NCBI GenBank assembly: GCA_024685775.1
Contig: JAIKVL010000035.1
Span: 1-35,973 of the forward strand
DNA: 35,973 bases
Direction: 5' to 3'
From: Clostridia bacterium
GTDB lineage: Bacteria; Bacillota; Clostridia; Christensenellales; CAG-1252
Shown: positions 17,154-26,405 of the stretch, piece after piece
How positions within the stretch are numbered: position 1 is the first letter of the stretch
Layout: each line of letters starts with the position of its first letter
Notes under the pieces: model-generated
What the model was told of the DNA's origin: nothing
Seen by the model: the letters and a program-made list of their open reading frames with translations, nothing else
The model's database searches: none
Program-made: the position numbers and the translations under genes

Positions 17154-19241
17154 TTACTTTACGGAGAAGAGCAAATCTCCGTAAGAAGGGTAGGGCCATT
17201 TTTCCGAGGGAACGACCGTTTCGAGGTCGTCGGCGACCGCGCGCGCCGCCGCCATTTCCGGGATCAGGACATCTTTGCAGAAGAAGGAGATCTCGGAGTA
17301 ATCCGTCATCTTTTCCGCCTTTGCGAGGTCTTTTTCCAAAGCTTCGGTCGCTTCGAACAGTTCGTCCGTCTTTACGGACAATTTTTGAAGCATCGCTTTT
17401 TCGTACTTCGAACTCGCTTTGTACGCGCCTTTCGCCGTAAGGATATCCGCGACGTCCTTTTGATACGCGCTCACCGCGGGCAAGATGTCCGTTTTAAGCA
17501 TATTGAGCGCGGTCAAAGCCTCGATATGGATGACTTTGCAGTAGTTTTCGAGCGCGATCTCGTAGCGGGCGCGCGCTTCGGTCTCGGTAAACACGCCTTG
17601 CTTTTTGAAAAGCGCGAGGTTCTTTTCCGAAACGTAGTAGGGAAGCGCGTCCGGCGTGGTTTTAAGGTTCATCAGTCCGCGCGATTCCGCTTCCTTGATC
17701 CATTCGTCGTCATAGCCGTTTCCGTTGAAAATGATCCTCTTATGCTCGACGATGACTTTGCGAACGAGCGCGTTGAGCGCCGCCGTAAAGTCTTCCGCTT
17801 TTTCGAGTTCGTCCGCAAACTGTTCGAGCTCGTCCGCGACCGCCGTGTTCAGAATGATGTTCGCGCAGGCGATCGAAGCGTTCGACCCGAGCATACGGAA
17901 TTCGAACTTGTTGCCCGTAAAGGCGAAGGGAGACGTCCTGTTTCTGTCCGTCGTGTCGGTCGGGAATTTCGGAAGAACGTCCACGCCGATTTTCAGCTGT
18001 TTGCGTTGCTTTTTATCGTAATGCTTGCCTTGCTCGATCGCGTCTAAGACGCCTTGGAGCTCGTCGCCGAGGAAGATCGAGACGACGGCGGGCGGCGCTT
18101 CGTTCGCGCCCAAGCGGTGATCGTTGCCCGCGCTCGCCACCGATATGCGAAGGAGATCTTGATATTCGTCCACCGCTTTGATGACCGCCGCGAGGAACAG
18201 GAGGAACTGCGCGTTCTCATCCGGCGTGTCGCCCGGTTCCAAAAGGTTTACGCCCGTGTCGGTCGAGATCGACCAGTTGTTATGCTTGCCGCTGCCGTTT
18301 ACGCCCGCGAAAGGCTTTTCGTGCAGGAGACACGCCATTCCGTGTTTCGCGGCGATCTTGCGCATGAGTTCCATCGTAAGTTGGTTGTGATCGGTCGCGA
18401 TGTTCGTCGTGGCGAAGATCGGAGCGAGCTCGTGCTGCGCGGGAGCGACCTCGTTATGCTCGGTCTTCGCGAGGATCCCGAGCTTCCAAAGCTCTTCGTT
18501 CAGCTCGTTCATAAAGGCTTGCACGCGAGTCTTGATCGCGCCGAAATAATGATCTTCGAGTTCCTGACCCTTGGGAGGTTTCGCTCCGAAAAGCGTCCTG
18601 CCCGTGTAGACGAGGTCCTTCCTCTTTTCAAACATCGCCCGATCGATGAGGAAGTACTCCTGCTCGGGTCCGACCGTCGTCTTTACGCTTTCCGCGCTTT
18701 CGTTTCCGAAGAGCCTCAAAATGCGAAGCGCCTGCTTGTTGATCGCTTCCATGCTGCGAAGAAGCGGGGTCTTTTTGTCCAAAGCTTCGCCGCCGTAGGA
18801 GCAGAACGCAGTCGGGATGTACAGGCATTTATCTTTAATAAACGCGTAACTCGTCGGGTCCCAAGCGGTGTAGCCGCGCGCTTCGAAGGTGGCGCGAAGC
18901 CCACCCGACGGGAAAGAGGAAGCGTCCGGTTCGCCGCGAACGAGTTCTTTTCCCGAAAATTCCATAATGACCGAGCCGGTCTTGGTCGGGGAAATAAAGC
19001 TGTCGTGCTTCTCGGCGGTCACGCCCGTCATCGGCTGGAACCAATGGGTGAAATGGGTGACGCCTTGCTCGGTCGCCCAGTCCTTCATCGCGTTCGCGAC
19101 GACGTCCGCCACGCTTCTGTCGAGTTCGATCCCTTTTTGAATGGTTTTTTGGAGCGCCTTAAAAGTTTCCTTCGGCAAACGTTGACGCATCACCTCTTCG
19201 CCGAATACCGATGATCCGAAAGTTTCGGGTACGCTTTTCAT
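17154..19241 (-). CDS. glnN: Glutamine synthetase type III
   Basis: A 695-residue GSIII, the usual size for the family (~700), making glutamine from glutamate, ammonium and ATP. The start [18 protein letters not shown] is fixed by AAGGAGG 7 bases upstream. GSIII hallmarks are [40 protein letters not shown] and [10 protein letters not shown]. It is first in the leftward operon, followed by amtB-glnK after 27 bp and asnB. Unlike the glutamine-synthetase-like protein at 24591, its active-site motifs are intact, so it is probably the main ammonium-assimilating synthetase. Its leader contains a terminator/antiterminator with an ANTAR-type hexaloop, suggesting control by RNA antitermination. Confidence 0.94.
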
Positions 19242-19282
19242 ATTGATTTCCTCCTTGTTTTTATTCGAAACAGCCCTATAAA

Positions 19283-19323
19283 CGAAAAAGGGCGCCACGG
19301 ATTTCTCCGCAGCGCCTTTGCTG
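19283..19323 (-). promoter_or_regulatory. Terminator/antiterminator leader of glnN with AAAGGC hexaloop
   Basis: Read on the minus strand: CAGC-AAAGGC-GCTG (19323 to 19310) forms a hairpin with hexaloop AAAGGC, which has A at loop position 1 and G at position 4. Its 3' half is also the start of GGCGCTGCGGA (19316-19306), which pairs with TCCGTGGCGCC (19301-19291) around a GAAA loop, with two G-U pairs, followed by CTTTTTCG: a strong intrinsic terminator. The two structures exclude each other. The layout and loop match the leader of the divergent glt operon. ANTAR proteins are known to bind AxxGxx hexaloops and prevent such terminators; use by the ANTAR protein at 25836 is inferred. Confidence 0.75.
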
Positions 19324-19336
19324 TTTCTTTGCTCAT

Positions 19337-19365
19337 AATTTAGCACCGCCGAAAACGCTTGTCAA
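19337..19365 (-). promoter_or_regulatory. Promoter for glnN-amtB-asnB
   Basis: On the minus strand a consensus TTGACA (19365-19360) is followed after exactly 17 bases by TAAATT (19342-19337). Transcription should start near 19330, only a few bases before the antiterminator hairpin, which leaves no room for a second upstream hairpin. Confidence 0.8.
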
Positions 19366-19486
19366 GAGGTTTTTCAAACTTTTTTCCAAAATTTTTTCGG
19401 ACCCCCGCCTTTCGATAAAGAAAATTAAACACCCTTATAAATGCCCTTTATTTCGGAAGATTTTGCAAAAAATTTTACGGAAACCG

Positions 19487-19516
19487 TTGACAAAAGCGGC
19501 GGGATTTCTTTATAAT
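19487..19516 (+). promoter_or_regulatory. Promoter for the glt-...-carB operon
   Basis: TTGACA (19487-19492) and TATAAT (19511-19516) are separated by 18 bases. The predicted start near 19523 puts the AAAGGC hairpin at the very 5' end of the RNA. The two divergent promoters lie about 120 bp apart, and A/T-rich DNA with G-run patches fills the gap. Confidence 0.85.
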
Positions 19517-19523
19517 GCAACTA

Positions 19524-19578
19524 AACGAACAAAGGCGTTCGTTCCGAAGTGTTTTCATTTCGGGACGAGCGCTTTTTT
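19524..19578 (+). promoter_or_regulatory. Terminator/antiterminator leader of the glt operon with AAAGGC hexaloop
   Basis: AACGAAC (19524-19530) pairs with GTTCGTT (19537-19543) around the hexaloop AAAGGC (19531-19536). Overlapping it, GCGTTCGTTCCGAAGTG (19535-19551) pairs along its full 17 bases with 19556-19572 around a TTTT loop, three of the pairs being G-U, and is followed by TTTTTT: a very strong terminator. The first hairpin uses up the 5' arm of the second. The loop is identical to that in the glnN leader. Between the terminator and the ATG at 19619 there is a further small hairpin (CCGAG at 19585-19589 with CTCGG at 19598-19602). An ANTAR target function is inferred. Confidence 0.8.
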
Positions 19579-19618: not shown

Positions 19619-20710
19619 ATGCTGTTAGAAGGTGAATTCAGAAACCCGTCCGGTTGCGCGATCTCGGCGGTCTTCGATAAAACCGGCGCGCGATTTTCGG
19701 GCAAAGACATCATCGATTCCATCGCGGTGATGCGCGACCGTTCCAACGGTCTCGGCGGCGGATTCGCGTGTTACGGAATCTATCCGGATAAAAAAGAGCT
19801 TTACGCGTTCCACGTCTTCTTTACGATCCACAGCGCGCGAAAAGATTTCGAGGAATATCTCGCCCGTTACTACGAGATCGATTCTTCCGAAGATATCCCG
19901 ACGAGGAAAATCCCCGAGATCGCGGACGAACCTGAGATCCGCCGCTATTTCGTCTATCCGAAACAAAATTTTATCGATTTCGTGAAGACGGGCGCGGATG
20001 AATGCGTCTTCCGCACGGTCTTCGCGGTGAACACCGAGATCAAAGGCGCGTATATCTTTTCTTCGGGAAAGAATATGGGGATCTTCAAAGCGGTCGGCTT
20101 CCCCGAGGACGTCGGCAGATTTTATAGGCTCGACGAGTACGAAGGCTATCTCTTCACCGCGCACGGCCGCTATCCGACCAACACGCCCGGATGGTGGGGC
20201 GGCGCGCACCCGTTCGGACTGCTCGGATTATCCGTCGTCCATAACGGAGAGATCAGTTCTTACGACGCGAACCGCCGCGCGATGGAAATGTACGGCTATA
20301 AATGCACGCTGCTCACCGATACCGAGGTCATAACTTATATCCTCGATTATCTGACGCGCAAAAAAGGATTGACCTTCGCGGAGAGCGCGGAAGTCATCGC
20401 CGCTCCGTTTTGGGAGAGGATCGACCGAATGAGCGAGGAAGACAAGGCGCGCGCGACCTATCTCCGCGACGTCTTTTCCGCTTGCCTCGTGACGGGGCCG
20501 TTCTCGATCATCGTCGGTTTCGACGGTGGCGTTATGGCTTTGAACGATCGCTTGAAGCTTCGGACGCTTGCGGTCGCGGAGAAAGGCGACAAGGTGTATA
20601 TGGCGTCGGAAGAGGCGGCGATCCGCAGGGTCTGCCCGTCGTTTGACAAAATGTTTTACGCGGAAGGCGGAAAGCCCATCGTGTACCGCGTGGAAGGAGG
20701 AAGAAAATGA
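19619..20710 (+). CDS. Glutamate synthase, glutaminase (GATase II) subunit
   Basis: A 363-residue stand-alone class II glutaminase domain of a split glutamate synthase; it releases ammonia from glutamine for the FMN subunit. The start at 19619 is preceded by AGAGAGG. The expected N-terminal nucleophile is Cys13 (NPSGCAISAVF), so a short 12-residue propeptide would have to be removed, as in other glutamate synthases. Further family features are MRDRSNGLGGGFACYGIYP, AHGRYPTNTPGWWGGAHPF, SVVHNGEISSYDANRRAMEMYG and LLTDTEVITYILDYL. It overlaps the next gene by four bases (ATGA), indicating translational coupling. Confidence 0.9.
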   Translation: MLLEGEFRNPSGCAISAVFDKTGARFSGKDIIDSIAVMRDRSNGLGGGFACYGIYPDKKELYAFHVFFTIHSARKDFEEYLARYYEIDSSEDIPTRKIPEIADEPEIRRYFVYPKQNFIDFVKTGADECVFRTVFAVNTEIKGAYIFSSGKNMGIFKAVGFPEDVGRFYRLDEYEGYLFTAHGRYPTNTPGWWGGAHPFGLLGLSVVHNGEISSYDANRRAMEMYGYKCTLLTDTEVITYILDYLTRKKGLTFAESAEVIAAPFWERIDRMSEEDKARATYLRDVFSACLVTGPFSIIVGFDGGVMALNDRLKLRTLAVAEKGDKVYMASEEAAIRRVCPSFDKMFYAEGGKPIVYRVEGGRK

Positions 20711-22212
20711 TCGATTTTAACGTGGCGCCTTTCGAAGTCGTGCGCGATTACGACAAGTGCGTGAATTGCCGCGTATGCGAAAGACAATGCGCGAATGAAG
20801 TGCATCGTTACGAGGAAGGGTTCGGCAAGATGATTTCGGACAGCACCAAGTGCGTGGATTGCCAACGCTGCGTCTGCCTGTGCCCGACCAAAGCCTTGAA
20901 GATCCTTCCCAATCAAAACGCCTTTCGCCCCAACGCGAATTGGCAGCAAAAATACCTGACCGAGATCTACAAGCAGGCGGAGTCGGGCGGCGTGCTTCTG
21001 TCCTCGATGGGCAATCCCGAGCCGTTCCCCGTCTATTTCGATAAGATCTTGATCAACGCGTCGCAGGTTACGCACCCTTCGATCGCTCCGCTGCGCGAGC
21101 CGATGGAGACGAGGGTCTTCCTCGGAGCGAAACCGCAAAGCGTCCAAAGGGGCGCGGACGGAAAGATCAAGCCCGTTTTGCCCCCTCGCTTAAAGCTTTC
21201 GATGCCCGTGATGTTTTCGGCGATGAGTTACGGATCCATATCCTATAACGCGCACGCGGCTCTTGCCCGCGCGGCGGAAAAGTTGGGGATTTATTACAAC
21301 ACCGGCGAGGGCGGTCTTCATAAGGATTTTTACAAGTATTCGGCAAATACCATCGTGCAGGTGGCGTCGGGTCGTTTCGGAGTCCATAAGGATTATCTCG
21401 AAGACGGCGCGGCGATCGAGATCAAGATCGGGCAGGGCGCGAAGCCCGGTATCGGCGGGCATCTTCCCGGCGCAAAGATCGTCGGGGACGTCTCCAAGAC
21501 GCGTATGATCCCCGAGGGCAGCGACGCCGTCTCGCCCGCGCCGCATCACGATATTTATTCGATCGAAGATCTGCGTCAGCTCGTCTATTCGATCAAGGAA
21601 GCGACAGAGTATAAAAAGCCCGTCATCGTCAAGATCGCGGCGGTGCATAACGTGGCGGCGATCGCCAGCGGAATCGCCAGAAGCGGCGCGGATATCATCG
21701 CGATCGACGGTTTCCGCGGCGGAACGGGCGCGGCGCCGACGAGGATCCGCGATAACGTCGGTATCCCCATCGAACTCGCGCTCGGCAGCGTGGATCAAAG
21801 ATTGCGCGAAGAGAATATCCGCGATAACGTTTCTTTGGTCGTGGCGGGATCGATCCGTTGCAGCGCGGACGTCGTTAAAGCGATCTGCCTCGGCGCGGAC
21901 GCGGTCTATATCGGTTCCGCGGCGCTTGCGGCGATGGGGTGCCACCTTTGCCGCACCTGCAACCTCGGCAAATGCAACTGGGGCATTGCGACGCAGCGCC
22001 CCGACCTCGTAAAACGGTTGAATCCCGATCTCGCGGCGGAACGCCTGATCAATATGCTGACGGGCTGGAATCACGAGATTCAGGAAATGATGGGCGGAAT
22101 GGGGATCAATTCCATCGAAGCGCTTCGCGGAAACCGCTTGATGCTTCGCGGCGTCGGGCTTAACGAACGCGAACTGGGCGTGCTCGGGATCAAGCACGCG
22201 GGAGAGGTGTGA
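20707..22212 (+). CDS. gltB: Glutamate synthase, FMN/ferredoxin central subunit
   Basis: A 501-residue archaeal/clostridial-type glutamate synthase large domain that converts 2-oxoglutarate plus ammonia to glutamate on FMN. Residues 1-75 form a bacterial ferredoxin module with two [4Fe-4S] motifs (CVNCRVCERQC and CVDCQRCVCLC). The FMN barrel follows, with MFSAMSYGSISYNAH, GQGAKPGIGGHLPG, IDGFRGGTGAAPTRI and the Fe-S motif CHLCRTCNLGKCNWG. The glutaminase and GXGXG domains, fused in bacterial GltB, are encoded separately on either side. The attached ferredoxin and the downstream Fe-S and flavin subunits provide the electron path. Confidence 0.93.
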   Translation: MIDFNVAPFEVVRDYDKCVNCRVCERQCANEVHRYEEGFGKMISDSTKCVDCQRCVCLCPTKALKILPNQNAFRPNANWQQKYLTEIYKQAESGGVLLSSMGNPEPFPVYFDKILINASQVTHPSIAPLREPMETRVFLGAKPQSVQRGADGKIKPVLPPRLKLSMPVMFSAMSYGSISYNAHAALARAAEKLGIYYNTGEGGLHKDFYKYSANTIVQVASGRFGVHKDYLEDGAAIEIKIGQGAKPGIGGHLPGAKIVGDVSKTRMIPEGSDAVSPAPHHDIYSIEDLRQLVYSIKEATEYKKPVIVKIAAVHNVAAIASGIARSGADIIAIDGFRGGTGAAPTRIRDNVGIPIELALGSVDQRLREENIRDNVSLVVAGSIRCSADVVKAICLGADAVYIGSAALAAMGCHLCRTCNLGKCNWGIATQRPDLVKRLNPDLAAERLINMLTGWNHEIQEMMGGMGINSIEALRGNRLMLRGVGLNERELGVLGIKHAGEV

Positions 22213-22213
22213 T

Positions 22214-22645
22214 ATGAAACGAATCTACGTCAAAGAAGAATGGTGCCTCGGCTGTCACCTTTGCGAATACGAATGCGCCTACGCAAACAGCGGGATCGGA
22301 AATATCGTCCTCGCTTTGAAGGATAAAGAGATCGATCCGAACGTCCGCGTCCAATCGGACGGAAAGATTACGTTCGCCGTTTCCTGCCGTCATTGCGACG
22401 AGCCTTTATGCGTTTCCGCTTGCATTTCGGGCGCGCTGACCAAAGAAGAGGGCGGCACCGTCACGGTGGACAGAAAGAAATGCGTCGGCTGCGGCAGCTG
22501 CGTGATGGTCTGCCCCTACGGCGCGGTCCGTCTGACGAAGGAAGGCTCCGCGAATAAGTGCCAACTCTGTATGAACAATTCTTTCGGCGAGCCGCTTTGC
22601 GTAAAAAAATGCCCGAACGGCGCGATCGTTTTTGAGGAGAAATGA
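22214..22645 (+). CDS. Four-cluster Fe-S electron-transfer protein of glutamate synthase
   Basis: A 143-residue protein with four Cys-rich motifs: CLGCHLCEYEC, CRHCDEPLCVSAC, CVGCGSCVMVC and CQLCMNN...CVKKC. It is thus a HycB/DmsB-like polyferredoxin with up to four [4Fe-4S] clusters. Starting one base after the FMN subunit and ending one base before the flavin subunit, it very probably carries electrons between them. It is cytoplasmic, with no signal peptide. A soluble role in some other oxidoreductase cannot be ruled out, but the context argues against it. Confidence 0.88.
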   Translation: MKRIYVKEEWCLGCHLCEYECAYANSGIGNIVLALKDKEIDPNVRVQSDGKITFAVSCRHCDEPLCVSACISGALTKEEGGTVTVDRKKCVGCGSCVMVCPYGAVRLTKEGSANKCQLCMNNSFGEPLCVKKCPNGAIVFEEK

Positions 22646-22646
22646 T

Positions 22647-23876
22647 ATGAAGAAATACGTTTTGATCGGCGGAAGCATCGCGACGCAAGGGGCGATCGAG
22701 GGGATCCTTTCCGTGGAAAAGAATGCGGATATCACCGTGATCTGCGGGGAAAAACGTCCCCTTTATTCCCGCCCTTTGATCTCCTACGTTTTGGAGAAAA
22801 AGACCCCGGACGAAGGGCTTTTCTTCCGCGGGAAAGATTACTATGAGAAAAAAGGCGTGAAAGCGGTCTACGAGACCGCGACCGCGATCGACCCCGCGAA
22901 AAAGACCGTCGCGGCGGGAGAAACCCTTTATCCCTATGACGAACTCCTCGTGGCGACGGGTTCCAAACCCTTCGTTCCCCCGATCAAAGGGCTGGAAGGT
23001 GTCTTGAAAAAGCACACCTTTTACACGATGGATGATATGCTCGGGCTTCGCGCCGACCTCGAACGAGGCGGCAAAGTCCTGATCGTCGGCGCGGGACTTA
23101 TCGGAATGAAATGCGCGGAAGGCGTTCGGGAGTACACGGATAAGATCGTGATCGCGGATATGGCGCCGCGTCCCCTTCCCGCGGCGACGACGCCCGAAGC
23201 GGGCGCGATCGTGCAGGAACGGCTTTCGGGGATCGTGGATTTCAGGCTGAACGCCGCCCTCGATCGATTCGAAGGAAATAAGGCGGTCTTCCAAAGCGGC
23301 GAAGAGATCGCGTTCGACGTCTTGGTTCTCGCGCTCGGCGTTCGCCCGCAAGTCGGACTTTTGAAAGAGATCGGCGCGGAGGTGAATCGCGGCGTAATCG
23401 TAAATGAAAAAATGCAAACGAACCTTCCGAGCGTCTACGCGGCGGGCGATCTCGTCGAATCTTACGAAGCGGTCGGAAAGGGTAAACGGCTGTTGCAACT
23501 CTTCCCGAGCGCGTACCTCGGCGGCAAGATCGCGGGAAAGAACATGGCGGGAGAAGAAACCGCGTTTTTGACCGACGTCCCGATGAACGCGACCAAGCTC
23601 TTCGGCGTTCGGATCACGTCCGCAGGGTTGTTTACGGGTGAAAAGACCGAGATCACCGTCGGCGAGGATTACCGCGCGATCTATGCGGAAGACGGGCGGA
23701 TCAACGGCTTTATTTTGATCGGCGATCCTTCGCGCGCGGGAATTTTGACCGACTTTATCCGCAAACGTCGCTCCGTCGAAGGGCTCGACGTTACGAAGCT
23801 TTTGACCGATCGCGATTTGTCGCTCTATCCCGAAGCGGAAAGGAAAGCGGCGATGGGAGGCACTTATGAAATTTAA
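22647..23876 (+). CDS. FAD-dependent NAD(P)H oxidoreductase subunit of glutamate synthase
   Basis: A 409-residue pyridine-nucleotide-disulphide-oxidoreductase-fold flavoprotein of the rubredoxin-reductase/NirB type. The ATG at 22647 follows GAGGAG by 7 bases. Features are an N-terminal FAD-binding Gly-rich turn (VLIGGSIATQGAIEG), LLVATGSKP, the NAD(P) Rossmann motif VLIVGAGLIGMKCAEG (about residue 145) and the FAD motif LPSVYAAGDLVE (about 265). It probably feeds electrons from NAD(P)H, through the polyferredoxin, to the FMN subunit, replacing the classical GltD. It overlaps the next gene by 11 bp. Nucleotide preference cannot be read from the sequence. Confidence 0.87.
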   Translation: MKKYVLIGGSIATQGAIEGILSVEKNADITVICGEKRPLYSRPLISYVLEKKTPDEGLFFRGKDYYEKKGVKAVYETATAIDPAKKTVAAGETLYPYDELLVATGSKPFVPPIKGLEGVLKKHTFYTMDDMLGLRADLERGGKVLIVGAGLIGMKCAEGVREYTDKIVIADMAPRPLPAATTPEAGAIVQERLSGIVDFRLNAALDRFEGNKAVFQSGEEIAFDVLVLALGVRPQVGLLKEIGAEVNRGVIVNEKMQTNLPSVYAAGDLVESYEAVGKGKRLLQLFPSAYLGGKIAGKNMAGEETAFLTDVPMNATKLFGVRITSAGLFTGEKTEITVGEDYRAIYAEDGRINGFILIGDPSRAGILTDFIRKRRSVEGLDVTKLLTDRDLSLYPEAERKAAMGGTYEI

Positions 23877-24579
23877 CGGAAAGACCTACGAGGCGAAAGA
23901 GATCAACGACGCGATCAAGGCGGCGGGCGACGCGACTTTGACCGAAGTCCTCGGCGAAAGATTCATCGCGTGCGGTTTGAAGACGGGCGTCGTCACGATC
24001 GAAGGAACGCCCGGAAACGCGCTCGGCGCCTATCTCGACGGAGCGAAGATCGTCGTCCGCGGCAACGGGCAAGACGCCGTCGGCGACACGATGAACGACG
24101 GCGCGATCGTCGTCCACGGTTCGGTCGGCGACACTTTGGGCTACGCGATGCGCGGCGGAAAGATTTTTATTCGGGATAACGTCTGCTATCGCGCGGGCGT
24201 CCATATTAAGGAGTACGGGGAAAAGAAACCCGTCATCGTGATCGGCGGGACGGCGGGCTGTTTTCTCGGCGAATATATGGCGGGAGGGCTTATCCTCGTC
24301 CTCAATAAAAAAAGCGAAAAAGACCCGATCGGCGACTATACGGGCGTCGGAATGTACGGCGGAAAAATCCTCGTCAAAGCGCAATCTCTTGACACGGTTC
24401 TCCCCGAGCAAATACAATGTAAAAAGATCGGAAAAGCGGAGCTTGCGGAATTTACTCCTTATATTAAGGAGTATGCCGCGGAGTTCGGCGCGGACTACGA
24501 AGCGCTTTCATCGGGAGATTTCTTTCTCTTGGAGCCGAACAGCGCGAATCCGTACAAGCGGCTTTACACGAATAATTAG
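23866..24579 (+). CDS. Glutamate synthase GXGXG (C-terminal) domain subunit
   Basis: A 237-residue stand-alone version of the C-terminal beta-helix domain of GltB. Its repeated Gly-rich turns are easy to see: EGTPGNALGAYLDGAKI, RGNGQDAVGDTMNDGAI, HGSVGDTLGYAMRGGKI and GGTAGCFLGEYMAGGLI. In fused enzymes this domain is structural and lines the ammonia tunnel. GGGAGG precedes the ATG, which lies inside the end of the flavoprotein gene. It is the fifth and last glt component; with 19619, 20707, 22214 and 22647 it completes a heteromeric glutamate synthase. Confidence 0.9.
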   Translation: MKFNGKTYEAKEINDAIKAAGDATLTEVLGERFIACGLKTGVVTIEGTPGNALGAYLDGAKIVVRGNGQDAVGDTMNDGAIVVHGSVGDTLGYAMRGGKIFIRDNVCYRAGVHIKEYGEKKPVIVIGGTAGCFLGEYMAGGLILVLNKKSEKDPIGDYTGVGMYGGKILVKAQSLDTVLPEQIQCKKIGKAELAEFTPYIKEYAAEFGADYEALSSGDFFLLEPNSANPYKRLYTNN

Positions 24580-24590
24580 GAGGCAATACT

Positions 24591-25832
24591 ATGGTTGATT
24601 TCGGCGATTTCGCAAATTTTATCCAAGAGGGCGACGTTAAATTCATTCGTTTGAGTTTCGTGGATCTCGAAGGGCGGCAAAAGAACGTCTCCGTTATGGC
24701 GGAAAGTTTCGAGAAGCATCTCTCGGAAGGCGTCGTCATCGAAGGAAAAGGCGCGGGATTCCCTTCCGAGACGGAGATACGGCTCGTCCCCGATATTGGG
24801 ACCGTCCATATCCTTCCGTGGCGCCCCCAACACGGCAGAGTCGCGAGGTTCCTTTCCTCGATCCGCTCGGTTTCGGGCGAAAGCCTTCCGTTCGACACGC
24901 GCAAGATCCTTTCGGACGCGGTCGCGCTCTTAAAAGAAAGCGGCTACACTTCCGAGATCGGAACGGACAGCGAGTTTTATCTTTTCTGCCTCGATTCGAA
25001 CGGCGATCCGACGCTCGTTACCCAAGATAACGCCGGCGCGTACGATATCGCGCCTTTGGATAAAGGCGAAAACGTTCGCCGCGAGATCTGCCTGACGATG
25101 GAAGAGATCGGGATCGATCCCCTTTCTTCGCATCACGAGCAGGGCCCCGGGCAAAACGAGATCACGTTCGTTAAAAAGTCGCCGCTCGAAGCCTGCGATA
25201 ATTACGTCATTTTCAAATCGGTCGTAAAAGCGATCGCCTCGCGCAACGGGCTGTACGCTTCCTTTATGCCCAAGCCGCTTTCGAACGAACACGGCAACGG
25301 CTTGACCATTCATTTCGACGTTCGGAAGGATAAGAAATCGATTTTCGCGGGAGAGGCTCCCGCGCTTGCGGAAGCTTTCGTAGCGGGGGTTCGGAGAAGG
25401 GCGAGAGCGTGCGCGCTCTTCGCGCATTCCGTCCCGAATTCTTTCGATCGTCTCGCGACCTATAAGCAGATCACCTCGATCGCGATCGAGGAAAAGCGCG
25501 ACAGCTTTATGCGCTTCACGAATACCTGCGGCGAAAAGAAACTTTCGCTGCGCGCGCCCGATAACGCCTGCAACTTATATTTGACCGTGGCGCTCGTTTT
25601 GCGCGCGGGTCTCGAAGGGATTAAGGACGGGTTGACCGCTTCTTCGGTCTCGCCCGAATCCCTCCCCGCGTCGCTTGAAGAAGCGATCCGCGAAGCGGAA
25701 GGAAGCGCGTTTCTCAAAGACGCGCTCGGCGAAGAATTGCTCGCGATGTACGTTTCCGCCAAAAAGAAAGCGGCGGAAGCCTTCGAAAAGGACCCCGCGG
25801 GCTACACGAAGAAGGATTTCGAAAGGTTATAA
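24591..25832 (+). CDS. Glutamine synthetase-like protein (type I fold) with altered catalytic residues
   Basis: A 413-residue GSI-type protein, shorter than typical GlnA (~440-470); AGGAGG precedes the ATG. Family features kept: DLEGRQKN, LPWRPQ, HHEQGPGQNEI (two metal Glu, 183 and 190), NSFDRL (Arg287) and RAPDNACNLYL. By-eye alignment shows changes: GNGLTIHF has Thr239 where GSI has the GSGMH histidine; the flap after NSFDRL (ATYKQIT) lacks the VPGYEAP glutamate; KLSLR has Ser319 where RIELR has the conserved Glu; the first metal Glu is Asp126. Activity is therefore doubtful, and glnN can supply the enzyme. It lies 3 bp upstream of the ANTAR gene, which suggests a role as glutamine/nitrogen sensor for that protein. 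A glutamylpolyamine-type ligase is an alternative. Confidence 0.8.
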   Translation: MVDFGDFANFIQEGDVKFIRLSFVDLEGRQKNVSVMAESFEKHLSEGVVIEGKGAGFPSETEIRLVPDIGTVHILPWRPQHGRVARFLSSIRSVSGESLPFDTRKILSDAVALLKESGYTSEIGTDSEFYLFCLDSNGDPTLVTQDNAGAYDIAPLDKGENVRREICLTMEEIGIDPLSSHHEQGPGQNEITFVKKSPLEACDNYVIFKSVVKAIASRNGLYASFMPKPLSNEHGNGLTIHFDVRKDKKSIFAGEAPALAEAFVAGVRRRARACALFAHSVPNSFDRLATYKQITSIAIEEKRDSFMRFTNTCGEKKLSLRAPDNACNLYLTVALVLRAGLEGIKDGLTASSVSPESLPASLEEAIREAEGSAFLKDALGEELLAMYVSAKKKAAEAFEKDPAGYTKKDFERL

Positions 25833-25835
25833 ACC

Positions 25836-26405
25836 GTGAGAACCGTTTTGGTGGTGACGCCGAACCTTCAAGACCTCGATTGGTTCAAGGAGGATCTGGC
25901 GAAGTTGAATATCGAGGAGATCTTCGGAGTGAAGACGTCTTCGGAAGCGCGGCGATATTTGATCGAACGCACTTGCGATCTTCTCGTTATCAACGCGCCG
26001 CTTTCGGATGAAAACGGGCTTCGCCTCGCGGTGGACGTCATCGGAAATAAAGCCAATCAAGTCATTTTGATGGTCAAGCGCGAATTTGCGGACGAAGTTT
26101 CCGCCAAGGTGGAAGATTACGGGATCTTTACGGTGGAAAAGCCCCTTTCTCACACGGCGTTTTGGCTTGCGCTCAAAATGACGAACGCCGCTTTCAATCG
26201 GACGCAAAGCTTTATCAGCGAGAACGATCGATTGAAAAAAAGCCTCGCGGACATCCGCTTGATCAATCGCGCGAAATGTCTGCTCATCGAGAAGATGGGG
26301 CTTTCGGAAGAGGCGGCGCATAGGGAAATGGAAAAACAGGCAATGGATCGCAGGCTCGAAAAAGTCGAACTTGCGAAAAAAATCATAGAAACGTTCGAGG
26401 ATTGA
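25836..26405 (+). CDS. ANTAR-domain antiterminator with pseudo-receiver
   Basis: A 189-residue AmiR/NasT/NitR-like RNA-binding regulator. It starts with GTG, AAAGG lies ~10 bases upstream, and the gene follows the GS-like gene by 3 bp. The receiver fold (1 to ~120) lacks the acidic pair (VVTPN) and has Asn53 where the phosphoacceptor Asp should be (LLVINAPL); the late Lys102-Pro is kept, so phosphorylation is not expected. A helix (~123-140) leads to the ANTAR domain (~138-186: RLINRAKCLLIEKMGLSEEAAHREMEKQAMDRR), with the conserved Ala, Glu, Ala and Arg pattern. It probably binds AxxGxx hexaloop hairpins and blocks termination; both AAAGGC leaders in this locus are candidate targets. Confidence 0.9.
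   Translation: MRTVLVVTPNLQDLDWFKEDLAKLNIEEIFGVKTSSEARRYLIERTCDLLVINAPLSDENGLRLAVDVIGNKANQVILMVKREFADEVSAKVEDYGIFTVEKPLSHTAFWLALKMTNAAFNRTQSFISENDRLKKSLADIRLINRAKCLLIEKMGLSEEAAHREMEKQAMDRRLEKVELAKKIIETFED

Follow-up and report, generated by a model that had tools for sequence, protein, structure and literature searches.

The genes for type III glutamine synthetase (glnN) and glutamate synthase (glt) are transcribed divergently in the window, i.e., the whole stretch of 35,973 nucleotides of Clostridia bacterium DNA (contig JAIKVL010000035.1) analyzed here, and both leaders contain a hairpin with the same six-base loop, AAAGGC. The locus raises the question of whether these hairpins are targets of an ANTAR protein encoded nearby, and whether one hairpin per leader is sufficient for such a target. 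The characterized ANTAR targets (eut, nas, and ami) have two hexaloops with A at position 1 and G at position 4 (PMC3369931), and genome searches for ANTAR targets have demanded dual stem-loops (PMC3369931, PMC8164766). Deletion of the first hairpin abolished the induction of eutP (PMC3369931); thus one hexaloop might be insufficient, which counts against a single-hairpin reading. The structure of EutV with RNA revised the minimal binding site to a single hexaloop; its authors considered both hexaloops necessary for antitermination and asked for studies of single-hexaloop sites (PMC8934654). In the published literature, we found a single-hexaloop attenuator only as a proposal in that paper.

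The glnN gene occupies positions 17154..19241 of the minus strand (Pfam GSIII_N, Gln-synt_C-ter, and Gln-synt_C). The plus strand encodes the class II glutamine amidotransferase subunit of glutamate synthase (19619..20710, GATase_2), the synthase subunit (20707..22212, Glu_synthase), and then the 4Fe-4S protein, pyridine nucleotide oxidoreductase, and GXGXG subunits of the same operon (22214..24579, assigned by Pfam). These are followed by a glutamine synthetase I-like (GS-I-like) protein (24591..25832, Gln-synt_N and Gln-synt_C), which is a candidate sensor partner, by the presumed antiterminator, a protein with a pseudo-receiver and an ANTAR domain (25836..26405, Pfam ANTAR 1.4e-14), and by purA and guaA. 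The divergent layout, with the type III glutamine synthetase (GSIII) gene on one side and the genes from the amidotransferase (GATase) through gltS to the GS-I-like and ANTAR genes on the other, is conserved across the order.

Both leaders, which are divergent and lie about 200 bp apart, have the same organization. The glnN promoter (19337..19365, minus strand) matches the consensus at 10 of 12 positions, with TTGACA at 19365-19360 and TAAATT at 19342-19337 separated by 17 nt. The putative antiterminator hairpin CAGC(AAAGGC)GCTG (19310..19323, minus strand, loop at 19319-19314), which is kept in relatives, is followed by an intrinsic terminator with an 11-bp stem and a GAAA loop (19291..19316, minus strand; terminator scan and folding). 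The last three loop bases (GGC) and the 3' arm of the hairpin form the start of this terminator; directly after it comes CTTTTTCGTT (minus strand), and its T tail extends to about 19283. The glt promoter (19487..19516, plus strand) matches all 12 consensus positions, with TTGACA at 19487-19492 and TATAAT at 19511-19516 separated by 18 nt. The putative antiterminator hairpin AACGAAC(AAAGGC)GTTCGTT (19524..19543, plus strand, loop at 19531-19536), also conserved, supplies its loop and 3' arm as the 5' side of an intrinsic terminator with a TTTT loop, which spans 19531/19532 to 19575/19576 of the plus strand (scan and folding) and precedes a T run. Promoters of this kind occur 0.6 times per region in shuffled sequence.

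The initial annotation had described these elements largely correctly. The two stems, the identical loop, and the use of the 3' half of each hairpin as the 5' arm of a terminator can be read directly in the sequence, and the promoter scan places both hairpins next to a promoter. The distance of about ten bases does not apply to glnN, where 13 nt separate the -10 box from the core stem (7 nt in glt). The 11 bp and GAAA loop of the glnN terminator and the TTTT loop of the glt terminator were given accurately; for the latter, counting the A-U and G-U pairs at the base of the stem raises the length from the 17 bp given to 20-21 pairs.

According to predicted folding, the terminator is more stable than the hairpin by about 14 kcal/mol in glt and about 12 kcal/mol in gln. 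Therefore, readthrough would require a bound factor that stabilizes the hairpin. In the glnN leader, the 5' arm GAAACAGC (19320-19327, minus strand) is complementary to GCTGTTTC (19267-19274, minus strand), located just 5' of the glnN ribosome-binding site; several species of the genus have the pair in their leaders as well, one of them with a mismatch. Since GCTGTTTC is transcribed after the terminator, this pairing could affect the readthrough RNA only. A search with Rfam at gathering thresholds gave no match in the window.

To see how far the element is conserved, we collected leaders 5' of GSIII and GATase genes from relatives; 80 loci in named records, including Ruminococcus albus AR67 and 8 and Defluviitalea phaphyphila, supplied more. 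An unconstrained scan, which accepted any six-base loop whose 3' arm lies inside a terminator, found 469 hexaloop-plus-terminator structures in 202 glnN and glt leaders of many species. A1 and G4 are combined in the loops of 172 of these structures, where composition predicts about 29; every other combination of loop positions accounts for at most 34. Chance is thus excluded. The initial annotation had taken the same loop on different stems for a sign of selected protein binding.

That annotation had also expected an alignment of relatives to show covarying stems around an invariant AAAGGC loop. We retained 158 hairpins that passed the filter A[AG]NG[AG]N with a C-G closing pair. Their stems do covary: six of seven pairs vary on both sides, and the covariation value is 0.591 compared with 0.287 in shuffled alignments and at most 0.176 in slid controls. 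Four inner pairs and the C-G closing pair are imposed by detection; the fifth pair, free of this requirement, is AU in 22 cases, UA in 22, and CG in 7. Strict identity of the loop did not hold. The consensus is AANGRY, with positions 1, 2, and 4 fixed as A, A, and G (1 and 4 partly due to the filter) and positions 3, 5, and 6 variable; position 2 is A in 99-100% of hairpins although the filter allowed A or G. Both the loop and its overlap with the intrinsic terminator are preserved in relatives that retain the ANTAR gene.

Some glnN leaders have two complete hexaloop-terminator units in tandem (loci L048, L190, L209, and L245, among others). One genus (L053, L153/L162; G032, G059) has the glt hairpin and terminator about 330-450 nt 5' of the gene, and in G059 an AT-rich repeated sequence lies between the attenuator and the gene.

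The hairpin alone is too short for a specific covariance model: at E<=1, matches occurred in 60 of 61 genomes. We therefore judged matches by the presence of an overlapping terminator. The genome under study contains 12 matches, with glt ranking best and glnN third, and in only three of them does an overlapping terminator adjoin the hairpin, namely in the glt and gln leaders and in one 5' of purF. A strict scan for promoter-hexaloop-terminator units in 1.76 Mb of loci returned 151 units, whereas five control loop classes gave 3-5 units each. The genes downstream are mostly GATase (57) and GSIII (56) genes; gdhA, amt, asnA, pyrG, carA, and purC are also found, and in one relative (G025) the switch lies 5' of purB and gdhA. 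A general role of the switch at purF was rejected: apart from the one in this genome, no purF leader examined has the attenuator. The contig of the nearest relative begins at the purF gene itself. The purF target thus rests on one species.

The ANTAR domain (PF03861) of the protein encoded at 25836..26405 scores 54.0 bits against a curated cut-off of 27.3, and no other ANTAR gene was found in the 1.7-Mb genome. Together with the conserved gene cluster, this supports the proposal of the initial annotation that one ANTAR protein would control both operons. ANTAR homologues were detected in 29 of the 61 genomes searched (the genome of the window included). Where a leader could be tested, the ANTAR gene and the hexaloop occur together in 26 genomes; 13 have neither, one has only the ANTAR gene, and two have only the hexaloop (Fisher p 5e-8, a value that ignores shared ancestry). 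The genus of the window itself includes four genomes with a leader suitable for the test that lack both. The two hexaloop-only genomes, in which no ANTAR gene was found, count against a role of ANTAR; the contig of one (G045) ends early, inside the GS-like gene, and nothing comparable explains the other (G059).

The predicted structure of the ANTAR protein (mean pLDDT 89.5) is closest to RNA-bound EutV (6ww6). The equivalents of the EutV residues K149, E160, and M172, which contact RNA, are conserved, and His occupies the position of Tyr164. A two-component regulator of the EutV type has a phospho-acceptor Asp in the receiver; the window protein has Asn at this position, as do 38 of 42 aligned homologues.

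How many hexaloops does each leader have? In the leaders compared, the core stem usually begins 10-13 nt after the end of the -10 box, and a properly spaced -35/-10 promoter is present in 121 of about 155 leaders versus 17 of 153 control windows. With such spacing, transcription is predicted to start at or just before the hairpin. Within 30, 45, or 60 nt upstream, a second A1/G4 hexaloop (with 3- or 4-bp stems) shows no excess over dinucleotide shuffles. Downstream, a second hexaloop was found in 10 of 158 cases, against 5.7 in shuffles, and several of these are the next unit of a tandem attenuator. A partner hexaloop with a linker of 3-20 nt was found in two of the 158. The same linker test found the textbook dual motif at one eut control locus; eut loci served as the positive control, a small set that yielded one clean dual under strict settings. 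Thus the leaders appear to carry a version of the ANTAR target with one hairpin in place of the usual two, located at the predicted extreme 5' end of the RNA, as the initial annotation had suggested. They share with the published dual-hexaloop family the A1 and G4 of the loop (AAAGGC twice), the covarying stem of at least 3 bp, and the overlap with an intrinsic terminator both here and in relatives; judged by sequence, they fall outside that family, for two tandem stem-loops with a short linker are not found.

The alternative that survives best is that these are dual targets after all: either a promoter yet to be mapped would yield a longer transcript with the second hexaloop upstream, or that hexaloop would be a weak hairpin missed by our scans. 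All characterized ANTAR antiterminators have two hexaloops (PMC3369931, PMC8164766), the start sites used here are predicted, and some gln leaders do contain two complete attenuators in tandem. However, each tandem unit has its own terminator, the promoter occupies the exact place that a first hairpin would need, and the upstream counts do not rise above those in shuffles. We rejected a hidden second hexaloop, and we regard a dual target as improbable.

The hairpins could also be a by-product of terminators that are constitutive or regulated in another way, the AAAGGC loop merely pairing with the GCCTTT end of the terminator without any role of ANTAR. It is true that the loop belongs to the terminator 5' arm. 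But pairing would permit compensated changes at every position, whereas A2 stays, G4 dominates, and positions 3, 5, and 6 vary, so we rejected terminator pairing alone as the source of loop identity. Moreover, the control loop classes are 30-50 times rarer, the presence of the element follows that of the ANTAR gene, and GSIII paralogues lack it. We consider this explanation very unlikely.

Least probable of all, with hardly any weight in our assessment, is that one ANTAR dimer bridges two nascent RNAs, e.g., the close and divergent glnN and glt leaders, each supplying the second hexaloop in trans: the two ANTAR domains in the EutV crystal do contact hexaloops of different RNA molecules, but the authors of the structure deemed trans binding unlikely on kinetic grounds (PMC8934654), and the same element also occurs 5' of amt, gdhA, pyrG, carA, and purF.

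The GSIII paralogues outside the cluster mostly have no hexaloop element. We accordingly rejected the idea that the element is a generic trait of all type III glutamine synthetase genes; several of the unlinked paralogues without it follow asnA. A second type III glutamine synthetase gene, directly 3' of an asnA-like gene and without a hexaloop leader, was observed at L123 (G000:C25) and L131.

We therefore return to the reading that we hold to be probably correct: the glnN and glt leaders are two ANTAR-responsive transcription attenuators with a single hexaloop each, and the ANTAR protein encoded at 25836 would act on them by antitermination. The function of the element as an ANTAR antiterminator is strongly supported by the comparative sequence data; the binding itself, the antitermination, the signal, and the partner we infer. 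By default, the leader RNA would fold as an intrinsic terminator, and transcription would halt before glnN or glt. When active, the ANTAR protein would bind the A1-A2-N3-G4 hexaloop, which emerges from RNA polymerase before any other structure. The terminator 5' arm would thereby stay within the antiterminator hairpin, resulting in readthrough. The switch probably responds to nitrogen or glutamine status.

The receiver without a phospho-acceptor Asp and the pairing of the ANTAR gene with the GS-like gene indicate that sensing probably proceeds by contact with a protein, possibly a GS-like partner, instead of phosphorylation. Among the loci examined, 61 of 64 GS-I-like homologues lie at most 800 nt 5' of the ANTAR gene on the same strand. 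Most of these homologues retain catalytic residues. The window protein departs from glutamine synthetases at several conserved positions of the active site: Glu of the I-E-L-R motif is replaced by Ser, His of N-G-S-G-M-H by Thr, and the neighboring Trp by Ile, and a minority of the homologues have similar changes; the protein may be a non-catalytic sensor in this lineage. In Bacillus, TnrA is bound by glutamine synthetase (PMC6316151), and the analogy suggests that the ANTAR protein could be controlled through contact with the GS-like protein in the same manner.

Systems of this kind are already known. NitR of Clostridium saccharobutylicum is an ANTAR protein that controls glutamine synthetase and GOGAT genes by antitermination under nitrogen limitation (PMC6316151), and ANTAR control of such genes has been suggested for C. 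thermocellum (PMC4676874). Predicted targets in Desulfotomaculum reducens likewise lie 5' of glutamate synthase genes; unlike ours, they were found by a dual-hairpin covariance model (PMC3369931). The eut leaders of Enterococcus faecalis have the same A1/G4 hexaloop on a short stem with the 3' arm overlapping an intrinsic terminator, but contain hairpins P1 and P2 in place of one hexaloop at the predicted RNA 5' end (PMC3369931, PMC8934654). Their regulator EutV has the overall fold and the RNA-contacting residues of the window protein and differs in the phospho-acceptor and Tyr164 positions. At these two positions, the window protein resembles AmiR, the regulator of the amiE leader in Pseudomonas aeruginosa, whose receiver is non-phosphorylatable, which has His at the Tyr164 position, and which is controlled by a partner. 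However, that partner, AmiC, is an amide receptor and is not GS-like, and the amiE target is dual. What we did not find in the searchable literature is the apparent use of a single 5'-terminal hexaloop as a rule, its spread, and the wider regulon.

A broader view is conceivable, though we advance it only tentatively: there may be a separate class of ANTAR systems in Clostridia in which one hexaloop at the RNA 5' end suffices and a GS-like protein reads glutamine and switches the pseudo-receiver, so that ammonium assimilation would be tied to the synthesis of purines, pyrimidines, and CTP.

The accepted model states that both hairpins are needed. More than 140 leaders have one hexaloop with an overlapping terminator, and in most of them the promoter leaves no room for a second; they make the sufficiency of one hairpin and the role of the first hairpin directly testable. 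The one-hairpin switch recurs in many gut and rumen Clostridia, including Ruminococcus albus and Defluviitalea phaphyphila. It outlines a nitrogen regulon around a pathway of central importance in gut and rumen bacteria, a group in which little has been described of nitrogen control.
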